Shown here in pieces: positions 54,665 to 64,000 of a DNA stretch of 64,000 nt. The stretch is from positions 1-64,000 of the forward strand of contig NZ_JAMSLR010000006.1 in assembly GCF_023806485.1 (NCBI RefSeq). Direction: 5' to 3'. The notes below the pieces were generated by a model. The model saw only the letters and a list, made by a program, of their open reading frames with translations, was not told the DNA's origin and did no database searches. Every line of letters starts with the position of its first letter. Within the stretch, counting starts at the first letter, position 1. A program made the translations under genes and the position numbers. This DNA is from Thermalbibacter longus (GTDB lineage: Bacteria; Chloroflexota; Chloroflexia; Thermomicrobiales; Thermomicrobiaceae).

Positions 54665-55495
54665 TTAGCGCGTGGGCCGCGCCCGGTTGATGGCGTCGCG
54701 CAGCGCCAGGGCGGCGGCGCGGGCAGCCGCGGCGAAGTCCGGCCCCTGGCTCGCGTAGATCACCGAGCGCGTCGCATTGACGACGATCGGGGCTGCAGCG
54801 CCGGCCAGGCCACTGGGTACCGCGGCCTCCAGGTCGCCGGCTTGAGCGCCGACGCCGGGGACCAGGATCGGCAGGTCAGGGTGTTGGCGACGCACCGCGG
54901 CCAGCTCGGCCGGGTATGTCGCGCCGACGACCAGCCCGCAGGAGCCGTAGCGCTCGTTCCAGCGGGCGACGCGCCGGGCGACATGGAGATAGAGTGGCTC
55001 CTCGCTTCCATCTGCCCGGACAGGCACGTCCTGGAGCTCGCCGGCCCCAGGGTTCGAGGTCTTGACCAGCACGAAGACACCCCGGCCGGGCGCGCGCAAG
55101 AATGGGGCCAGCCCGTCCTCCCCCAGATAGGGGTGAACGGTGACCGCGTCGAAGCCCCAGCGGTCGAAGAAGGCCTGGGCGTAGGCAGCCGACGTGCTGG
55201 CGATATCGCCGGCCTTGGCGTCCAGGATGACCGGGATCTGCGGCGGGATCAGCCGGCGCGTCTCGACGAGCGCTCGAAGGCCAGCCTCGCCGTGGACGAG
55301 ATAGAAAGCCAGGTTGGGCTTGTAGGCACAGACGAGATCGGCAGTCGCCTCGATGATGGCCCGGTTGAACGCGAGGATCGACGAGGGGTCACGCGGCAGA
55401 TGAGCCGGGAACCGCTCGAGGTCGGGGTCGAGCCCGATGCAGAGCATCGAGTCGTTAGCGCGGATCGCCTGGTTCAGCCGTTCCAAAAATTGCAT
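54665..55495 (-). CDS. pyrF: orotidine 5'-phosphate decarboxylase (type 2)
   Basis: Last step of UMP synthesis: decarboxylates OMP. The 276 residues fit the longer type 2 enzymes of Actinobacteria and Chloroflexota. CIGLDPDLERFP is the N-terminal phosphate-side strand. The catalytic Asp-Lys-x-x-Asp network is in ILDAKAGDIAST. The late LVPGVGAQAGDLEAAV strand binds phosphate. ATG 55495. No other pyr gene adjoins it. A -10-like TATTCT (55536-55531) lies 36 bases upstream, within the same 12-mer found before the gene at 43611. Confidence 0.94.
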   Translation of the reverse strand: MQFLERLNQAIRANDSMLCIGLDPDLERFPAHLPRDPSSILAFNRAIIEATADLVCAYKPNLAFYLVHGEAGLRALVETRRLIPPQIPVILDAKAGDIASTSAAYAQAFFDRWGFDAVTVHPYLGEDGLAPFLRAPGRGVFVLVKTSNPGAGELQDVPVRADGSEEPLYLHVARRVARWNERYGSCGLVVGATYPAELAAVRRQHPDLPILVPGVGAQAGDLEAAVPSGLAGAAAPIVVNATRSVIYASQGPDFAAAARAAALALRDAINRARPTR

Positions 55496-55857
55496 CGTGC
55501 ACCTCGTTCACACATCGCCTGGCTAGCTGTAGAATAGCAGGGCAAGAACGTTCCCGCAGCCGATCCAGAATCCGGTGCCGGTCGGTACGCGCGCAACGGG
55601 ATGGGTCGTGACCGCTGACTTTCTTTGCACGACGCGGACCGTGAGAGCGGCAGGACGGCGCTCCAGGGCGCGAGCGCGCCGGGTGACCGGCGTGAGGTGG
55701 CCTGGCGAAGCGCGTATTGTCCGGACAGGTGCGTCTTCGCGCATGCCGATGGGGAATGCTTGGGTATAGCCAGAGGAGTTCATGGACAACCCAGCGCGAT
55801 CGTCGTACCCTCACCAGTGCCACCGCAGCGGGTTGGGGGCCGCCTGGGAGGCTGGAC
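55496..55857. other. divergent intergenic region, pyrF / dehydratase
   Basis: No gene found; short frames have no ribosome-binding sites. It contains the pyrF -10 candidate (55531-55536) and the palindrome TGTCCGGACA (55718-55727) also seen before uvrA. I could not identify a promoter for the dehydratase. Confidence 0.4.
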
Positions 55858-56859
55858 ATGAGACTCGAGCCGCCGACGTTTCAAGATATCTTGCGGGCAC
55901 GCGCCGTCGTGCACCGCTATCTGCCGCCGACGCCGCTCGTGCAGCCGGCAGCCCTCAGCGAGCGGCTCGGTTTCGAGGTGTACCTGAAGTGCGAGAGCCT
56001 CCAGCCGATCGGCGCGTTCAAGGTGCGCGGCGGGGTCTACCTGATGAGCCGTCTCTCGCCGGAAGAGCGCGCCCGCGGCGTGGTCACGGCGTCGACCGGC
56101 AATCACGGCCAGTCGATCGCCTACGCGGCGCGGCTGTTCGGCGTGCGAGCAATCATCTACGCTCCCGAGGACGCCAACCCGTTCAAGCTCGCGGCCATGC
56201 GGCGACTGGGTGCTGAGGTCGTCCTGACCGGTCGGGACTTCGACGAGGCGCGCCTGGCGTGTGAGGAGCGTGCCGCCCGTGACGGGTTTCGCTATATCCA
56301 CTCCGCGAACGAGCCAGACCTCATCGCTGGCGTCGGTACCTACGCGCTGGAGCTGATCGAAGCGGTACCGGACCTTGACGCCGTGATCGTCCCGGTCGGG
56401 GCCGGGAGCGGCGTCTGCGGGACCGGGATCGTGATGAAGACGGTCAACCCCGGGATCGAGGTGATCGGGGTGCAGGCGGCCGGCATGCCGGTCGTCTACG
56501 AGTCCTGGCGGCAGGGCCGGCTGCTGGAGCTGGACGGGGGTTCGACCTTCGCCGAGGGGTTGGCCACGCGAGTGGCGTTCGAGCTACCGCTGCGGATCAT
56601 CCGCGAGCGGGTGGACGAGCTGGTGCTGGTGAGCGACGAGGAGATGTGCGCGGCGATCGTCGAGCTGATGGAGACGGCACACCTGGTCGCCGAGGGTGCC
56701 GGCGCGGCGGCGCTGGCCGCCGCTCACCGGCTACGCGAACGCCTGGCGGGGAAGAAGGTCGCGCTGATCGTCAGCGGTGGCAACATCACGCTCGAGACGC
56801 TGCGTTGGGCCCTGGCGACGGCCGGATATCCACCGGCTGTTGCTGGGCCGGCCAGCTAG
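55858..56859 (+). CDS. PLP-dependent threonine/serine dehydratase
   Basis: Fold-type II PLP enzyme of 333 residues that likely deaminates threonine or serine to a 2-oxo acid. The PLP lysine is in QPIGAFKVRGG, followed by STGNHGQSIAYAA (Asn contact to PLP). The phosphate loop reads GAGSGVCGTG, and the C-terminal Ser of SGGNIT contacts the pyridine ring. There is no C-terminal ACT regulatory domain, so it is the short catabolic-type dehydratase rather than feedback-regulated IlvA; related serine racemases are not excluded. ATG 55858 has gggaggctgg upstream. The TPR gene follows after 19 bases. Confidence 0.9.
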   Translation: MRLEPPTFQDILRARAVVHRYLPPTPLVQPAALSERLGFEVYLKCESLQPIGAFKVRGGVYLMSRLSPEERARGVVTASTGNHGQSIAYAARLFGVRAIIYAPEDANPFKLAAMRRLGAEVVLTGRDFDEARLACEERAARDGFRYIHSANEPDLIAGVGTYALELIEAVPDLDAVIVPVGAGSGVCGTGIVMKTVNPGIEVIGVQAAGMPVVYESWRQGRLLELDGGSTFAEGLATRVAFELPLRIIRERVDELVLVSDEEMCAAIVELMETAHLVAEGAGAAALAAAHRLRERLAGKKVALIVSGGNITLETLRWALATAGYPPAVAGPAS

Positions 56860-56878
56860 CGCGACGGTGAGGGGGACA

Positions 56879-58987
56879 ATGTTCGAGCAGTTCGGCCGCT
56901 GGCTTCGTCGCCGGCAGGGGATCGAGCGGAACCCGCTGTACCGGATCGCTGCCGAAGTCGCGGCTGGCCGGCTCACGCCGGAGCAGGCATACCTGGCCGC
57001 CGAGCAACCTGACTTGCTAGCCCGCATCGCCGATGGCGACCTGTGGGAGCTCCAGGCAGAAGCTTCCCGGATCGCCGTCGACGAGCCTGAACAGGCGCTG
57101 CTGCTGACCCGGCTCGCGATCCTGGCAGCCCGGCAGAAGAGCTTCGACCGCGTGTTGATGGAGGCCAACCTGCGCGCGGCCGACCTGCTGGCTGAGATGG
57201 GTGAGACCTCCGAGCAGGAGCTCCACCTGCGCGAGGCGCTGCGCGCTGCCCAGCGAATCGCCAACGTGGTCGGGCAACGCCGGGCGCTGGCGAGGCTGGC
57301 CCGGCTGGCGTTCGACCGCGGCGAGCGGGAGCGGGCCCGGGAGCTCCTGACCCGGCAGCTCGAGTCTGGACGGGAAGACACCGATACGCTGGAAGACGTG
57401 GAGACAGCGCTGATGCTCGGCGACCTGGCCCGCCAGGACGGCGACCTGGCCGCGGCCCGCGAGTTCTACCACCGCGCCGGGCGCAGCGCCCGCCGGGTCA
57501 CGCACTATGCCGGCCTAGTCGATGCCCTGCTCCGCCAGGTCGCGATCCTACGCGATGAAGACCCGGACACGGCCTACGTGCTGTTGCAGGAGGCGCAGGA
57601 GGCGGCCGAGCGAACCATCGACCATCGCTTGCAGGCCGAGATCGCGATCCAGATCGGCGCGCTGCTGGCCCAGCGGGGCCGCCTCACCCAGGCACGCTCG
57701 GCACTCCTCGGCGCGCTGGAGCGAGCGCGGGCCAGCAGCGATCTGACGATGGAGAGCCGCTGTCTCATGGGGCTGACCAAACTCGAGCGGCGGATGGGCA
57801 AGCTCGTCGAATCTGCCGAGCACTACCACCAGCTCGCCAACCTGGAACAGCGCCTGGGGAGCCGCGGGACTGCTGTCCGGGCATTGCTCGACGCGGCCGA
57901 GCTCTACCTCGAAGCGCGCCAGCCAGGCCGTGCCCTGCAGATGCTCCAGCTTGCCCAGCAGAATGCCGAGGGTATCGAAGACCAGGCAGTCCGCCAGCGG
58001 CTCCTCGGGTTGCTCGGGCTGGCGCACGGGGCGCTCGACCACCGGGGCGAGGCGCTGGATTACCTGGGCGATGCGCTCCAGCTTGCTCAGTACTCCGGCT
58101 CGGCTGAGGACGAGGCGCGCTGGTTGCTCGGCACTGGGGAGATCCTGCTCCAGTTCGGAGAGCTGGGCAATGCGCTCGATGCGGCCGACCGCGCGATCAC
58201 GCTGGCTCAGCAAGTCGGTGCGGTTCACCTGGAAGCGCAGGGGCTGGCGCTGCTCGGCTCGGTCTGCCTGGCGCGCAACCTGACACGAGAGGCGAGGAGC
58301 TATCTCGATCAGGCGGTGGAGCTCGCCGCTGAGGCGGGGGATGTCGCCGGCCAGCAACGCTACCTGCTGATGCTGGCCGAGCTCGCGCGGCGGGTCACCG
58401 ACCCGCACGGCGCCATCGGCTATCTGCGGCAGGCCCTCGACCTGGCGATTGCGACCGGCAATACGGAGATGCGCGCCCGGCTACATGGCCAAATCGCCCG
58501 GCTCTACCAGGCGTTGAACTTTTTCCAGGAGGCGGAGGAGCATTACCGGGCCGCGCTGGCCGCAGCCCACGAGATCAACGATGTCTCGCTGCTCGCCCGG
58601 GCGCTCCGCGGGCTGGCGACGGTGCTCGATACCACCGGTCAGGCCGAGGACGCGGCCGCTGCCTACCGGCAGGCGATCACGCTCTCGGAGCAGCTCAACG
58701 ATCGCCGCTCGGCGATGGCGCTGCACTATAACCTCGGCGTGCTGCTGATCGACCAGGGCAACGAGGCCGATGCCCGCTACCACCTGCGCTGTGCCTACGA
58801 CCTCGCGACCCATCTCGGGGAGCGGGAGATCGTCGAGGCGACTCTCGAACTGCTCGGTGAGCCCTTCGTCGAGCGACCAGCCCCCGCTCCGGCGTCGATC
58901 CCGCCGGACTACGGCGAGGATCTCCTGCTGAGCGAGACCGCGCTGCACGAGGGAGCCGAGCAGCACCGCGACGTGCTGCGGGATTGA
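56879..58987 (+). CDS. tetratricopeptide-repeat protein
   Basis: A 702-residue soluble protein built almost wholly of helical TPR-like repeats (for example REFYHRAGRSARRVTHYAGL, AEEHYRAALAAAHEINDVSL, AAAYRQAITLSEQLNDRRSA). The first 100 residues are a distinct helical region with ARQKSF. No signal peptide, membrane segment or enzyme domain. Such proteins are scaffolds. ATG 56879 has gtgagggggac upstream; the frame opens earlier inside the dehydratase gene. It may be co-transcribed with the dehydratase. Followed after about 245 bases by the pseudophosphatase-propeller gene, perhaps a functional partner (inference). Confidence 0.82.
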   Translation: MFEQFGRWLRRRQGIERNPLYRIAAEVAAGRLTPEQAYLAAEQPDLLARIADGDLWELQAEASRIAVDEPEQALLLTRLAILAARQKSFDRVLMEANLRAADLLAEMGETSEQELHLREALRAAQRIANVVGQRRALARLARLAFDRGERERARELLTRQLESGREDTDTLEDVETALMLGDLARQDGDLAAAREFYHRAGRSARRVTHYAGLVDALLRQVAILRDEDPDTAYVLLQEAQEAAERTIDHRLQAEIAIQIGALLAQRGRLTQARSALLGALERARASSDLTMESRCLMGLTKLERRMGKLVESAEHYHQLANLEQRLGSRGTAVRALLDAAELYLEARQPGRALQMLQLAQQNAEGIEDQAVRQRLLGLLGLAHGALDHRGEALDYLGDALQLAQYSGSAEDEARWLLGTGEILLQFGELGNALDAADRAITLAQQVGAVHLEAQGLALLGSVCLARNLTREARSYLDQAVELAAEAGDVAGQQRYLLMLAELARRVTDPHGAIGYLRQALDLAIATGNTEMRARLHGQIARLYQALNFFQEAEEHYRAALAAAHEINDVSLLARALRGLATVLDTTGQAEDAAAAYRQAITLSEQLNDRRSAMALHYNLGVLLIDQGNEADARYHLRCAYDLATHLGEREIVEATLELLGEPFVERPAPAPASIPPDYGEDLLLSETALHEGAEQHRDVLRD

Positions 58988-59111: not shown

Positions 59112-59232
59112 GGCGGTGTCAGAAAGTCACGACCGCGCCGCCGGGAGATCCGTCCGGGCGCAGGGCTCCCTGCGCCCGCGGGGGACTGTGCGCCTGCGCG
59201 GAGCGCGCGACAGCGAGAAGGAAGCGAGAAGC

Positions 59233-61611
59233 ATGCCGCGAACCACCTGGGCAACAACGCATTTCGCGCCGGGGATCGCCGCGACAGGAGAGTCCCCATA
59301 CATCGGCCTGCTCATGGATGGGGATCTCGGGAGTGCCGGGGGCCACGGGGTAGCGGTGATCCTGGAGCCACTGGGCGAAGGGCCAGGCGTAGCCGAGGCT
59401 GCTCGGCAGGTGCTGGCGCTGCTCCAGCACGCCGCCTGGCAGATCAACGGGCAGACCTCGCTCGAAGAGCTGGGCGACACGCTGGGACAGGCCTTCGGGG
59501 CCGCGAACCAGTGGCTCTTCAGCCTGAATGCCGGCCGCTCGCTGGGTGAGTGGTACCGCTTCGGCGCGACCTGTGCCCTCTTTCGCGGGCCTGATCTCCT
59601 GATCGCCCAGGTGCTGCCGGGCCAGGTGCTGGTGGGTCAGGAGCAGGAGATCTATGCCTTTCCCGGAGAGGACGCCGAGCGACAGGACAGCAGCTATCCC
59701 CTCGGGCAATACCGGCAGGTCCAGCCAGCGTTGTACTACACCCGGCTGGCACCAGGCGACACCGTCGTGCTCTGCCACCAGGAGCTCGGGGCCGCTCTCG
59801 CTGCCCGCTTTCCGGAAGCCATCCTGAGCCCAGACTCGCACCGCATTATCAGGCTCCTGGAGGAGCTGGCCTGGGAGAGCGGGCGCCCGGACGCCCACGC
59901 GATCGCGATCGCCATCGGCTCCGAGCGCAGCGCGCCCGCACGCCCTCTGCGCCGGCTGGCGGATGTGCTGCTCCACTTGCTCCCCGAGGAGACAGCGCGG
60001 CGACTCGACTCGCGGGCTAGGACGAATTGGCCGGGGGAAGCGGTTGACCCCACGATCGAGGCGGTGCAGACTAATCATGGGGCCACCGGCGGCGTTGACG
60101 CGCACGCCGAGGCGCGGGGGGATTGGGACGACGAGCCACCTCGACGCAGCGACGACTCTGCTACACCGGATCGATCCTGGCGCGACGAGGAGTCGACCGC
60201 CGAGGAGCGCTGGGAGCCCTCCGCCAGTTCGGACGATGACGCCGTCGCAGGCGACTTCGAGCACCGGGCAGGGAGGAGTCGTACCCTGGTCGAGCTGCTG
60301 GCCGGTTTCGCCATTGCGCTCGTCGCGGCCGCGCTAGGCGTTTGGCAGCTCATCAGCCGGCGTCGCCACCGCCTTTCCCCACCGGCGGACGACGGGACGT
60401 TCGGGCTCCCGCGCCTGCAACGCTTCAACGACGCCATCCAGTTCCCCGACTTCGGCCCCGTGCGCCGCCAGCTTCCCCGATTGCCGGTGAGCCGGATGAC
60501 CGGGCTGGTGGCAATCAGCCTGATCGGCATTCTCACTACGGCACTGGCGTTCTCTATCCACAACGATCGCGAGCGTGCCCGCCAGGAACGGTTCGACATG
60601 CTCGTGCAGACGGCGGTACAGGAGCGCATGCTGGCCGAGCAGTCGAGCGACCCGACCATCGCCCGAGCATATCTGTCGACGGCCAGCGCCCGGCTGGACG
60701 CGGCCGCCGAGCTCGGGCTCGACCCCGCGCGGATCCAGCAGGAGCGGGCCGCTGTCCAGGCGGCCACCGACCGCGTGCTCAAGATCCAGCGCCTGGAGAG
60801 CATCCAGGTGCTCGGCGGCGTGCCGCCAGCGCCTGAGGGGGTGACCCCGCGGCTCTTCTTCGGCAACGGCCAGCTCTACATCCTGACCGACGCGCTCTAT
60901 CGCCTCGACAGCGGCGGCACCAAGCTAATCAAGCTGCTCGAGCCTGGGGCCCAGGTCGGCGGCGCGCCGGTCGGCACGTTGCTCGGCGCGGCCTGGGGCG
61001 AGGGCACACCGGTCGCCTTCGATGGGGCCAATGCGTATATTCTCGACCCGGCGACGGCGCAGTGGAACCGACTACCGGTCGGCACCTTCGGCGCGCCGTA
61101 CTCCGGCGTTGCGACGGTGAACGGCTTCGCCGGCAACTTGTACCTCCTGCTCCCCGAGCCGGGGCAGATCCTGAAGTTTCTCGCTGGCTCCTACCAGAAC
61201 CAGCCTGAGGACTGGACCGGCGGCCAGTTCACCGAACACCTATCCGGCGCGGTAGACATGGAGATCGATGGGCGCATCTACGTGCTCAAGCCGGACGGCA
61301 CGGTGGTGACGTTCTATCGCGGCGCGCTGGAGGGCGAGGCAACGCCGCAGGTGGATCCGCCGGTGGCGAACGCGGTCGCGCTCTCGATGCAGCCGGATCG
61401 GCCTTTCCGCTACGTGGCAGACCGGGATGGTCGCATCCTCCGGCTCTCGCAGGACGGAACCCTGGTACAGCAATTCCTCCCGGCCGAGGGGGCGCCGCCG
61501 CTGGGGCCGATCCGGGATATCGCGGTGGACGACATCCTCGGCGTGGCCTATGTGCTGACCGACCAGGCGCTGCTCTCGATCCGGCTGCCTGCCCCGCCGG
61601 CCGGACAGTAA
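59233..61611 (+). CDS. membrane protein: inactive PP2C-like domain, two helices, beta-propeller
   Basis: A 792-residue protein of an architecture I do not recognise. Residues about 1-240 follow the PP2C phosphatase pattern (FGATCALFRGPDLLIAQVLPG; LAPGDTVVLCHQELGAAL), but the metal-binding acids are gone: the usual GDSR reads LPGQ and the SDG of LLCSDGL reads HQE. An acidic, Asp/Glu/Ser-rich linker (about 270-345) precedes two helices (about 351-373 and 422-443), a coiled coil (446-522) and a C-terminal beta-propeller (525-792) with repeated VxG-x-x-Y-x-L-type blades. Probably an envelope sensor with a cytoplasmic pseudophosphatase. ATG 59233 begins MPRTTWATTHF; its ribosome-binding site (gaaggaagcgag) is acceptable. 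Confidence 0.78.
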   Translation: MPRTTWATTHFAPGIAATGESPYIGLLMDGDLGSAGGHGVAVILEPLGEGPGVAEAARQVLALLQHAAWQINGQTSLEELGDTLGQAFGAANQWLFSLNAGRSLGEWYRFGATCALFRGPDLLIAQVLPGQVLVGQEQEIYAFPGEDAERQDSSYPLGQYRQVQPALYYTRLAPGDTVVLCHQELGAALAARFPEAILSPDSHRIIRLLEELAWESGRPDAHAIAIAIGSERSAPARPLRRLADVLLHLLPEETARRLDSRARTNWPGEAVDPTIEAVQTNHGATGGVDAHAEARGDWDDEPPRRSDDSATPDRSWRDEESTAEERWEPSASSDDDAVAGDFEHRAGRSRTLVELLAGFAIALVAAALGVWQLISRRRHRLSPPADDGTFGLPRLQRFNDAIQFPDFGPVRRQLPRLPVSRMTGLVAISLIGILTTALAFSIHNDRERARQERFDMLVQTAVQERMLAEQSSDPTIARAYLSTASARLDAAAELGLDPARIQQERAAVQAATDRVLKIQRLESIQVLGGVPPAPEGVTPRLFFGNGQLYILTDALYRLDSGGTKLIKLLEPGAQVGGAPVGTLLGAAWGEGTPVAFDGANAYILDPATAQWNRLPVGTFGAPYSGVATVNGFAGNLYLLLPEPGQILKFLAGSYQNQPEDWTGGQFTEHLSGAVDMEIDGRIYVLKPDGTVVTFYRGALEGEATPQVDPPVANAVALSMQPDRPFRYVADRDGRILRLSQDGTLVQQFLPAEGAPPLGPIRDIAVDDILGVAYVLTDQALLSIRLPAPPAGQ

Positions 61612-61615
61612 CTGC

Positions 61616-62368
61616 TCACTCGCTAGCAGGCGTCACCTGCTCGAGCGGCACCTCGTGGCGAGTGCCGTCCTCGAGCTCGATCGTCACCACGCGATGCCTG
61701 GTCGAGACAGAGCGAACGATTCCCTTGCCCGCAGGCGTGATGACCGTGCTTGCCAGCCGCGGGTAACCACCGGGGGCCGGCGCTGGCGGCTCGCCCAGCG
61801 GCACACCCAGCCGCAGCCGGGCTAATTCGCCGAGTTCCAGCCCGGCGCCGGCGATCCGGCCGAGGCTGCCGGCAAGCGCTCGCGGCGGTCCGCCAGGGCG
61901 CGTGGCAAGGTGTACCGGCCGGCCGAGCCGCTCGGCGAGCCGGGCGGCGATCTCGACAACCGGCGGGCCGGCCCCACCCTCCCAGTACTCGACCACTACG
62001 GCCCCTCCGAGCGCGACTCGCAGTCCCAGCAGAGGCGAACTATCCTTCGCCCACTCGGCTGACTCCGCGATCTGGCCGAGCGTCTCCGCAGCCTGCTGCG
62101 CAAGGTCGCGGGCCAGCGCGGCGAGTTCGGGCAGGCGGGCACGCTCGCCCTCGCTCAACCACCGTACCGGGAGTTCAGGCACCTCGCCCTCGATGTGGAA
62201 CACCTGCTCCGGCGCGATGACGACGAGCGCCGGCTCCTCGCCGACCGGGCCAGGCACCGCGACCCACTCGCCCGTGCGGAGCAGCTCGGCAACCCGGCCG
62301 ATCTCGACCCGCGCGGAGCCTAGCCTGCGTACACCAGCGATCAGCGCGTGCGCTCGGGGGACGGCCAT
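61616..62368 (-). CDS. PSP1/YaaT-like protein without the cysteine cluster
   Basis: A 250-residue protein in the position that PSP1 (YaaT/RicT) genes occupy after holB. The C-terminus (STVITPAGKGIVRSV, then VTIELEDGTRHEVPLEQV) matches the end of that family, and the N-terminus has IAGVRRLGSARVEIG. The central Cys-rich metal-binding region typical of RicT is absent, so an Fe-S role is not expected. Function unknown; family members support RNA maturation and chromosome/sporulation processes. ATG 62368 overlaps the end of holB by 28 bases; the open frame to 62437 is longer but lies wholly in holB. Confidence 0.68.
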   Translation of the reverse strand: MAVPRAHALIAGVRRLGSARVEIGRVAELLRTGEWVAVPGPVGEEPALVVIAPEQVFHIEGEVPELPVRWLSEGERARLPELAALARDLAQQAAETLGQIAESAEWAKDSSPLLGLRVALGGAVVVEYWEGGAGPPVVEIAARLAERLGRPVHLATRPGGPPRALAGSLGRIAGAGLELGELARLRLGVPLGEPPAPAPGGYPRLASTVITPAGKGIVRSVSTRHRVVTIELEDGTRHEVPLEQVTPASE

Positions 62369-63405
62369 TGCGTCACCAGCGCGTCGAGTGCCAGCCGAAC
62401 CTGCACGTTGGTCTCCAGATCGACCATTGCCTGGCACGTTGCGCGCAGGCCCTGCACGATCTCGTCAGGCGACCAGCGTCGGGCCAACCGCTCCAACCGC
62501 TCGCGCAGGCCGGCATAGCTCACCCGGTCATCCAAACCGTAGCGGAGCAGTAGCAGGTCACGCCAGAGCATCGCCAGCACGGCGAGCTGGGCCTCGACCT
62601 GTGCCCGGCGGCCGCGCCGGTAGGACTCGGCGAGCTGCCGCGCCCGGCCTAGCGCGACGAGTGGATCGGACAGCATCTGGAGCCCGGCCTCGGCCAGTTC
62701 CTGGTGCCTGGCCAGCTCCTCCGGGTCAGCCGCCATCCGGAACGCCTCCCCGATCCGGCCCCGGGTCAGGCTGGCAATCAGAGCCGCCTGCGGTGCCCCG
62801 ACCCCGCGGGACTCCAGCGCCGCCCGGACGGTGGCGACCGGAACCGGCCCCAGCCGGATCTGCTGGCAGCGGGAGCGGATGGTCTCGGCCACGCTGGCGA
62901 TATCCTCGACGATGAGGATCAGCACGGCGAAGGGGGGCGGCTCCTCGAGTGTCTTCAAAAGCGCATCGGCCGCGTCCCGCGAGAGCCAGTCGGCATCGTC
63001 GATGACGACGACGCGCCAGTCGCTCTCCAGCGGCCGAAGGGCGAGCGTGGCACGAAGCTCGCGGATGGCATCGATCGAGATCCGGGTCGGCCGGGCCTCG
63101 CGCTCGCCCCCGACCGCCTGCAAGCTGAGGACGGTGAGGTCCGGGTGCATGGCTCGTTCGACCCGGTGACAGCTCGGACAGCTCCCGCAGGGACGCCAGT
63201 GTGGCGCTGCCTGGCAGAGCAGCGCTCGAGCGAAGGCGAGCGCCAGCGCGCGGCGTCCAACACCCGCCGGGCCGCTGATGAGGTAGGCATGACTGACCTG
63301 GCCTCGCCGCACTGCCCGGTCAAGCGCTGCCACCGCAGCCTCGTGGCCGATGACCGGCCAGAGGGCCGGCCCTTCACGTTCGGTCTCGTGCAGGGGCTCA
63401 CGCAA
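62341..63405 (-). CDS. holB: DNA polymerase III delta' subunit
   Basis: Clamp-loader subunit of 354 residues that loads the sliding clamp in replication. AAA+ landmarks: IGHEAAVAALDRAVRRGQVSHAYLISGPAGVGRRALA (the P-loop region GPAGVGRR lacks the usual Lys, as is common in delta'), zinc knuckle CGSCPSCHR, then a sensor strand VVIDDADWLSRDAADALLKTLEEP. No ATP hydrolysis is expected of this subunit. The start is TTG 63405, overlapping the stop of the upstream NERD gene by 8 bases, with aagaagg upstream. Second gene of a three-gene operon. Confidence 0.93.
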   Translation of the reverse strand: MREPLHETEREGPALWPVIGHEAAVAALDRAVRRGQVSHAYLISGPAGVGRRALALAFARALLCQAAPHWRPCGSCPSCHRVERAMHPDLTVLSLQAVGGEREARPTRISIDAIRELRATLALRPLESDWRVVVIDDADWLSRDAADALLKTLEEPPPFAVLILIVEDIASVAETIRSRCQQIRLGPVPVATVRAALESRGVGAPQAALIASLTRGRIGEAFRMAADPEELARHQELAEAGLQMLSDPLVALGRARQLAESYRRGRRAQVEAQLAVLAMLWRDLLLLRYGLDDRVSYAGLRERLERLARRWSPDEIVQGLRATCQAMVDLETNVQVRLALDALVTQWPSPERTR

Positions 63406-64000
63406 CCCTGGCCTTCTTCCTTCCCGGCTCGCGCGCCGGCAGGGCCACCGGCCCCTCGACCTCGTCTCCCGCGGAGAGGGCCGCGACGACCTCGTCGCAC
63501 TCCCTAGCGCTGAGCCGCCGCTCGGTACCGTAGGCGCGGATCGCCTCCGCCAGCTCCCGGCGCGTCACGACGGTGATGCTCGACTCGATGACCTGGAGGT
63601 TCACCCGGTCATTCAGGAACACGACCAACCCATCGATCGCGTCGACTCCCGGCAGGTCGCGCTGGCTCAGGAACTCGCGCAGCGCCTCCTGCTGGCGCTG
63701 GCACTCGATGGTCGGGTTGCCCAGCGGGGGGCCACCGAAGGTGAAGATCCGGATCAGCCGGCTATCGAGCCGGCGCCAGCGGGTACCCTGCACCTGGATA
63801 TGGCCGGCCATCTCTCGGGTGGTGATGACTAGCAGCCCGCCGGGCCAGATCAGCACGTGCTCGGGGCGCCACCCTTGGGAAACGTCCGGATAGTGGACGA
63901 GCGTATAGCGGTCGTTGAGACGGCGCAACGTCGCGTCGAGCAGCTCATCGGGGCGCGGGCTCCGGTTCCATTTGGCCCACTGCTGCATGCCGGCGTTGAA
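63398..64000 (-). CDS. NERD-domain protein, N-terminus cut by window edge
   Basis: At least 200 residues of a NERD (nuclease-related) domain protein. DELLDATLRRLNDRYTLVHYP, then EHVLIWPGGLLVITTREMAG carry the hydrophobic-Asp/Glu-type core. A Gln/Glu-rich helix (ECQRQQEALREF) and DGLVVFLNDRVNLQVIE follow. The domain is related to type II restriction nucleases, though most members are uncharacterised. An ATG at 63988 is in frame, but the coding sequence continues to the window edge (FNAG before it), and homologs often carry membrane segments there, so the true start is probably outside. Coupled to holB by an 8-base overlap. Confidence 0.82.
   Translation of the reverse strand, partial: FNAGMQQWAKWNRSPRPDELLDATLRRLNDRYTLVHYPDVSQGWRPEHVLIWPGGLLVITTREMAGHIQVQGTRWRRLDSRLIRIFTFGGPPLGNPTIECQRQQEALREFLSQRDLPGVDAIDGLVVFLNDRVNLQVIESSITVVTRRELAEAIRAYGTERRLSARECDEVVAALSAGDEVEGPVALPAREPGRKKARVA

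Follow-up and report, generated by a model that had tools for sequence, protein, structure and literature searches.

A single gene in the window, which is the whole 64,000-nucleotide stretch of DNA analysed here, encodes a membrane protein that joins a PP2C-fold domain with an altered metal site to a six-bladed beta-propeller. Judged from its sequence and modelled fold, the PP2C domain is a pseudophosphatase: it has a phosphatase fold that has lost its catalytic residues, it is under selection, and it is predicted to be inactive. The protein belongs to an old family that is present across most of the Chloroflexota, and its domain order, which has been kept phylum-wide under purifying selection, is far from chance. 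The best explanation for this architecture is a receptor-type PP2C pseudophosphatase, in which the propeller would lie outside the cell and a Ser/Thr phospho-signalling partner would be bound inside, a functional reading to which we give an even chance of being right. The individual parts are already known; on the open literature, their combination in a putative receptor pseudophosphatase family with a propeller appears to be new.

The protein, from a Thermomicrobiaceae genome, is specified by a single open frame of 792 amino acids with an ATG start. An alternative, longer frame opens at GTG 59116, and ATG 59233 is taken as the right start because the frame of a relative (L003; 792 aa, 80% identical) begins exactly at the homologous ATG and a likely ribosome-binding site lies 10 nt upstream. 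Homologues within the family are 41-81% identical over the full length. The nearest named relatives, from a contig scan with a close-relative profile that gave matches in Thermomicrobiales only, are Thermomicrobiaceae MAGs (80-81%), followed by Thermomicrobium and Sphaerobacter. Single-sequence searches of Pfam, NCBIfam and the PDB returned nothing meaningful for the 792-residue protein, which is recognised by profiles only. The features referred to below are as follows.

56777..58987, + strand: upstream TPR gene (MalT-like TPR; Pfam, synteny), not counted in the system
59216..59222, + strand: likely ribosome-binding site AGAAGGA, 10 nt before the ATG (putative, by reading of the sequence)
59233..61611, + strand: gene for the putative receptor-type PP2C pseudophosphatase (open frame, homologues, start as in L003)
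59233..59943, + strand: PP2C/PPM-fold domain without a canonical metal centre, residues 1-237 (profile, AlphaFold2, Foldseek)
59365..59367, + strand: E45 at the tPphA D34 position (alignment; conservation rank 8 of 237)
59617..59619, + strand: P129 at the tPphA D119 position (Pro in 64/66 members; conservation rank 2 of 237)
59779..59781, + strand: Q183 at the tPphA D193 position (alignment)
59890..59892, + strand: D220 at the tPphA D231 position, kept in the window protein and not family-conserved (alignment)
59944..60285, + strand: acidic low-complexity linker, residues 238-351 (28 Asp/Glu versus 14 Lys/Arg)
60286..60342, + strand: hydrophobic segment 1, residues 352-370, a local addition (hydropathy 2.39)
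60343..60501, + strand: juxtamembrane loop with 10 Lys/Arg and 4 Asp/Glu and an LPRLP motif (sequence)
60502..60558, + strand: conserved transmembrane helix, residues 424-442 (hydropathy, AlphaFold2 helix)
60559..60777, + strand: helical hairpin or coiled coil, residues 443-515 (AlphaFold2 helices, pLDDT mostly above 90)
60784..61584, + strand: six-bladed NHL-type beta-propeller, residues 518-784, 24 strands (AlphaFold2, structure match, profile)

The PP2C fold and its rebuilt metal site

Both the PP2C fold and the homology of residues 1-237 can be taken as settled from profile comparison and modelling. A profile of this domain (A1), built from 49 relatives, matches tPphA with an E-value of 4.6e-19, which gives clear homology over residues 10-233, and matches Stp1 and PstP with E-values of about 1e-11 to 1e-10. 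The AlphaFold2 model of the domain has a pLDDT of 90.4, and its top structural matches in Foldseek are PP2C structures only; the match with tPphA covers 204 residues at 3.2 A with a Z-score of 20.8. The beta-sandwich fold and the sequence homology by which the PP2C/PPM superfamily is recognised are therefore both found in this segment. The initial annotation had seen a PP2C pattern in the N-terminal third and had suggested structure prediction against PP2C as a check, and the profile, the model and its similarity to tPphA bear this out. A segment that it gave as PGD-x-x-L-C was misread, and is actually PGDTVVLC, with three residues between PGD and LC. The fold is also that of SpoIIE, RsbU and RsbX; 5ucg, 3w40 and 3zt9 are among the structural matches of the domain, and Pfam SpoIIE is matched weakly by 8 N-domains. 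These proteins differ, however, in being active partner-switching phosphatases with no propeller.

In PP2C phosphatases, the binuclear centre is held by motifs 2, 8, and 11 and a third metal by motif 5 (PMC12088040). The corresponding positions were read from the profile alignment with tPphA and compared in 66 pseudo members of the family. Where catalytic PP2Cs have D34, D193 and D231, together with D119 for the third metal, the window protein has E, Q, D, and P, respectively. The D34 position is Glu in 54 of the 66 members, and the tPphA residue G35 has become P46 in the window protein. A Pro-x-Gln run, ending in Q131, stands at the place of D119-Ser-Arg. The D193 position, Gln in the window protein, is Ser or Thr in most members, and 33 members keep an acid, Asp or Glu, at the D231 position. 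The full ligand set occurs in none of the 66, whereas three active-type proteins recovered by the same profile have all of the motifs; the conserved metal site that would speak against a pseudo-enzyme is thus missing in its canonical form from every pseudo member compared. The family therefore shares fold and homology over residues 10-233 with tPphA and bacterial PP2C/PPM phosphatases such as PstP, Stp1, and PppA, but is distinguished from them by the loss of D34, D119, D193, and the DGMGGH, GDSR, and SDG motifs, as well as by the fusion to a transmembrane helix and propeller.

The altered positions are themselves strongly conserved. P129, E45, and Q131 rank 2, 8, and 11 of 237 in the domain, which argues for a selected new pocket rather than decay, and the alignment indicates that the metal site has been rebuilt under selection. 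Selection on the N-domain is purifying, with a dN/dS of about 0.17-0.28 against same-genus copies. The N-domain tree separates the pseudo domains, as a single group, from every active PP2C, with a support of 100/99. The statement that every metal-binding acid is replaced was a slight overstatement: it holds for D119 and D193, now P129 and Q183, but E45 and D220 stay acidic, so that some metal binding by the window protein is possible. Canonical catalysis is still not expected.

Membrane segments, hairpin and propeller

The linker that follows the PP2C domain is acidic by direct count, as had been noted at the outset, and is the fastest-evolving part of the protein (dN/dS about 0.3). Beyond it, the coiled coil and propeller that had been proposed are both recovered in the AlphaFold2 model of the C-terminal half, which has a pLDDT of 93.6. 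The model consists of a 50-residue helix that includes the membrane segment, two further helices, and 24 strands arranged in six blades. The closest propeller structures are the NHL domains of Mei-P26 (Z 23.6) and Brat (Z 23.4) and the PknD sensor (1rwi; Z 20.8), and the C-terminal profile also matches PknD with an E-value of 1.1e-9. The six four-stranded blades, with Z-scores of 20-24 to NHL domains, are those of an NHL-type propeller. NHL propellers are common, and the match therefore gives the fold and not the ligand. Within the genus, the half that comprises the membrane-proximal region and the propeller has changed less than the N-domain (pN 0.07 versus 0.16-0.18).

The two membrane helices described in the initial annotation are indeed present in the window protein, at residues 352-370 and 424-442, but they are typical only of its own family and a few others. 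By hydropathy, a single hydrophobic segment, immediately preceding the hairpin, is seen in 53 of 76 members, and two segments in 22; the second segment is found in the window protein and in all full-length members of family f1 that were examined. The 15 residues on the N-terminal side of the conserved helix are richer in Lys and Arg than those on its C-terminal side (287 versus 165 in 75 members). Together with the single conserved transmembrane helix and the existence of a version of the same chassis with an intact PP2C, this bias underlies the assignment of a propeller-out topology to the family, since an intact PP2C would need cytosolic phosphoproteins as substrates and so should face the cytosol. 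A topology with the N-terminus inside and the propeller outside is accordingly supported at the level of the family, and hydropathy and charge suggest for most members a PknD-like arrangement with a single transmembrane helix and an outside propeller.

The proposal that the propeller lies outside and the pseudo-enzyme in the cytoplasm is supported for the family; for the window protein itself, the second hydrophobic segment makes it less certain. Two spanning helices would place the propeller and the PP2C domain on the same side of the membrane, a consequence that the initial annotation had left out of account. The strongly positive charge of the loop between the segments (10 Lys/Arg versus 4 Asp/Glu) would suit a loop that lies inside, with the propeller outside, provided that segment 1, which contains a conserved Glu, does not fully span.

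Distribution and the intact-motif counterpart

The protein is matched in 91 of 101 relatives, and in 60 of the 62 good-quality genomes among them. With the full-length profile, both domains are found in one gene in about 82 of 161 near-complete Chloroflexota genomes, counting profile rows that start at position 57 or before and end at position 636 or beyond. The search for the same domain order across the phylum, suggested from the start, thus finds it recurring at full length in about half of these genomes. In about 18 further genomes the propeller half is encoded within a frame of some 700-840 aa. In four of these families that were checked (L114-L117), the N-domain is recognisable only at an E-value of about 1e-6, with GPxHA or a similar run at the place of GDSR. 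The propeller half has been retained in these f17 and f50 genomes, while the N-domain is now barely recognisable. The protein is absent from small genomes, such as those of family f19, and the plasmids searched gave no match. The family offers a lead on the function of a widespread, unannotated Chloroflexota membrane protein.

A related receptor is found in larger genomes of the phylum. Family f28 and one other, with genomes of 4-14 Mb, encode proteins of 750-873 aa with an N-terminal PP2C (L085, L086, L091, L120, L139-L143). They have the same domain order as the pseudo family and a homologous C-terminal half: in hhalign, the C-terminal halves of the nine proteins align with the family alignment (A2) over 335 columns with a probability of 99 and an E-value of 3e-18, and the homology begins at the membrane helix and continues through the final blade. 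Unlike the pseudo family, those checked (L085, L086, and L091) have DGMGGH, GDSR, SDG, and DN all intact, and their N-domains match Pfam PP2C_2 with E-values of 1e-18 to 1e-20. As the transmembrane helix, hairpin, and propeller are homologous, one receptor body carries either type of PP2C. No published description of these large-genome receptor PP2Cs was found in the open literature.

The intact-motif receptors were considered as the direct ancestor of the pseudo domain, and the N-domain tree gives this no support. There the PP2C domains of the intact receptors are placed within the ordinary PP2Cs that their own genomes encode, and a clade uniting them with the pseudo domains is disfavoured at a p-AU of 0.031, a borderline value from a comparison with long branches. 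Either the PP2C module has been exchanged or ordinary PP2Cs arose from the receptor, and the possibility of exchange makes a shared function of the intact and pseudo receptors less certain. A broader proposal, which we hold tentatively and put at somewhat under an even chance, is that of a phylum-wide receptor class, in which one sensor chassis would carry either an intact-motif PP2C or a dead PP2C serving as a conserved binding pocket. The catalytic module would have been lost or swapped during the radiation of the Chloroflexota, and the class would represent a bacterial receptor-pseudophosphatase counterpart with a phosphoprotein- or kinase-binding output.

Known systems, competing readings and genomic context

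The closest known plan is that of Mycobacterium tuberculosis PknD, whose sensor has been described (PMC3322341), and in which a cytosolic phospho-signalling domain is linked through a transmembrane helix to an outside six-bladed NHL-type propeller. In the window family, however, the inside domain is a pseudophosphatase and not a Ser/Thr kinase, a hairpin lies between helix and propeller, and the window protein carries its second hydrophobic segment. Among eukaryotic PP2C pseudophosphatases, PHLPP2 and TAB1 similarly keep the PP2C fold without catalysis, with a proposed role as membrane scaffold, and still bind one metal (PMC12002173). They differ in their LRR/PH context, in the residues replaced, in being eukaryotic, and in having no propeller receptor. 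PTPRU and the D2 domains of RPTPs are likewise receptors with an inactive phosphatase domain inside, but have a tyrosine phosphatase fold and belong to animals (PMC7320164). A 2025 survey of bacterial PP2Cs mentions neither propellers nor inactive members (PMC12088040). Neither a bacterial PP2C pseudophosphatase family nor a propeller-fused receptor PP2C was found described in open papers, a search whose coverage leaves out most subscription journals, and the statement that no described system has this order agrees with that result. The pseudophosphatases found in the literature are eukaryotic; the present family retains a dead phosphatase domain across a bacterial phylum. Its lost metal site is now among the most conserved features of the domain, and an intact-motif version on the same body allows direct comparison, so that the role of a pseudophosphatase that does not catalyse becomes testable by domain swaps in bacteria.

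In the preferred mechanism, the propeller would bind a ligand or envelope component outside the cell, and the hairpin and membrane helix would relay a change in orientation or clustering. The cytosolic pseudo-domain may then capture a kinase or a phosphoprotein, leaving the phosphate in place, and so serve Ser/Thr phospho-signalling as a decoy or a regulated scaffold; in the intact-motif branch, genuine phosphatase activity would come under the control of this receptor body. That the pseudo-domain binds a phosphoprotein or a kinase is a plausible prediction. Such phospho-partners exist, as the window's genome encodes three Ser/Thr kinases and one ordinary PP2C. The main rival is an envelope scaffold. 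On this view the propeller and hairpin would do their work outside, by binding polymers of the wall or surface, while the PP2C fold would have nothing to do with phosphorylation and would serve only to anchor or oligomerise the protein in the cytosol. The better conservation of the propeller half and the absence of kinase neighbours are in keeping with this, and the drifted N-domains of f17 and f50 add some weight. We consider it unlikely nevertheless, as in most members few positions of the N-domain are better conserved than those of the former active site and the same chassis bears an intact-motif PP2C in another branch.

That the protein remains catalytic, through a metal site reorganised around E45, D220, and other acids, is very unlikely: these two residues are acidic at the D34 and D231 places, and PHLPP2 and TAB1 retain one metal, but the D193 and D119 positions have lost their acids, the D231 position is acidic in only about half of members, and PHLPP2 has no activity with a site that is only partly changed (PMC12002173). 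A cytosolic propeller, which would make the window protein and its family relatives membrane-anchored cytosolic scaffolds with two spanning helices and not receptors of an outside signal, would account for the strongly hydrophobic segment 1 in all full-length f1 members examined. It is rendered quite improbable by the single helix of most members, the positive charge of the inter-segment loop, and the conserved Glu of a segment that may not span. There is also little probability that the pseudophosphatase and the upstream TPR protein act together as partners, a possibility that the initial annotation had raised. The TPR gene is adjacent and on the same strand in 29 order-level loci, but the synteny examined shows no TPR gene beside the pseudophosphatase gene in other classes or in the remaining families of this class, and in the window 245 nt separate its stop from the pseudophosphatase start. 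The suggested check of whether the two genes always adjoin thus fails beyond the window's order. What stands of the idea of a signal-transducing pseudo-enzyme receptor is the PP2C pseudo-enzyme with its propeller, through fold, profile, and phylum-wide conservation; the TPR protein as a general partner is not supported.

No conserved adjacent partner gene and no kinase neighbours were found in the synteny examined across families. As no gene neighbour is conserved, there is no genetic tie to kinases, and a partner should be sought biochemically. Outside the window's order the neighbours include tsaD, tgt, ychF, obgE, and zwf, recognised by eye, which we take to be unrelated housekeeping genes. 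A downstream lipoprotein, whose gene overlaps the stop codon in some Chloroflexia, seemed a candidate partner but was rejected because it is missing elsewhere. In five loci (L039, L041, L050, L054, L055) the start of a lipoprotein gene lies 4 bp within the pseudophosphatase gene's end, an overlap that suggests translational coupling in this part of the Chloroflexia. In four others (L043-L045, L066) a gene for an exported protein of 279-318 aa directly follows; in L043 this is succeeded by a lipoprotein and then by a response regulator and a histidine kinase. The ordinary PP2C of the window's genome (L126; G000:C12) has DGMGG, GDSR, and DN intact and a hydrophobic, probably transmembrane, C-terminal end. 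Upstream in the window, pyrF, a PALP enzyme, and the TPR gene occupy 54665-58987, an order repeated in several order-level relatives. Towards the far end, a gene for a NERD nuclease-related domain protein (63398-63988, - strand) lies beside the DNA polymerase III delta' gene (62341-63405).
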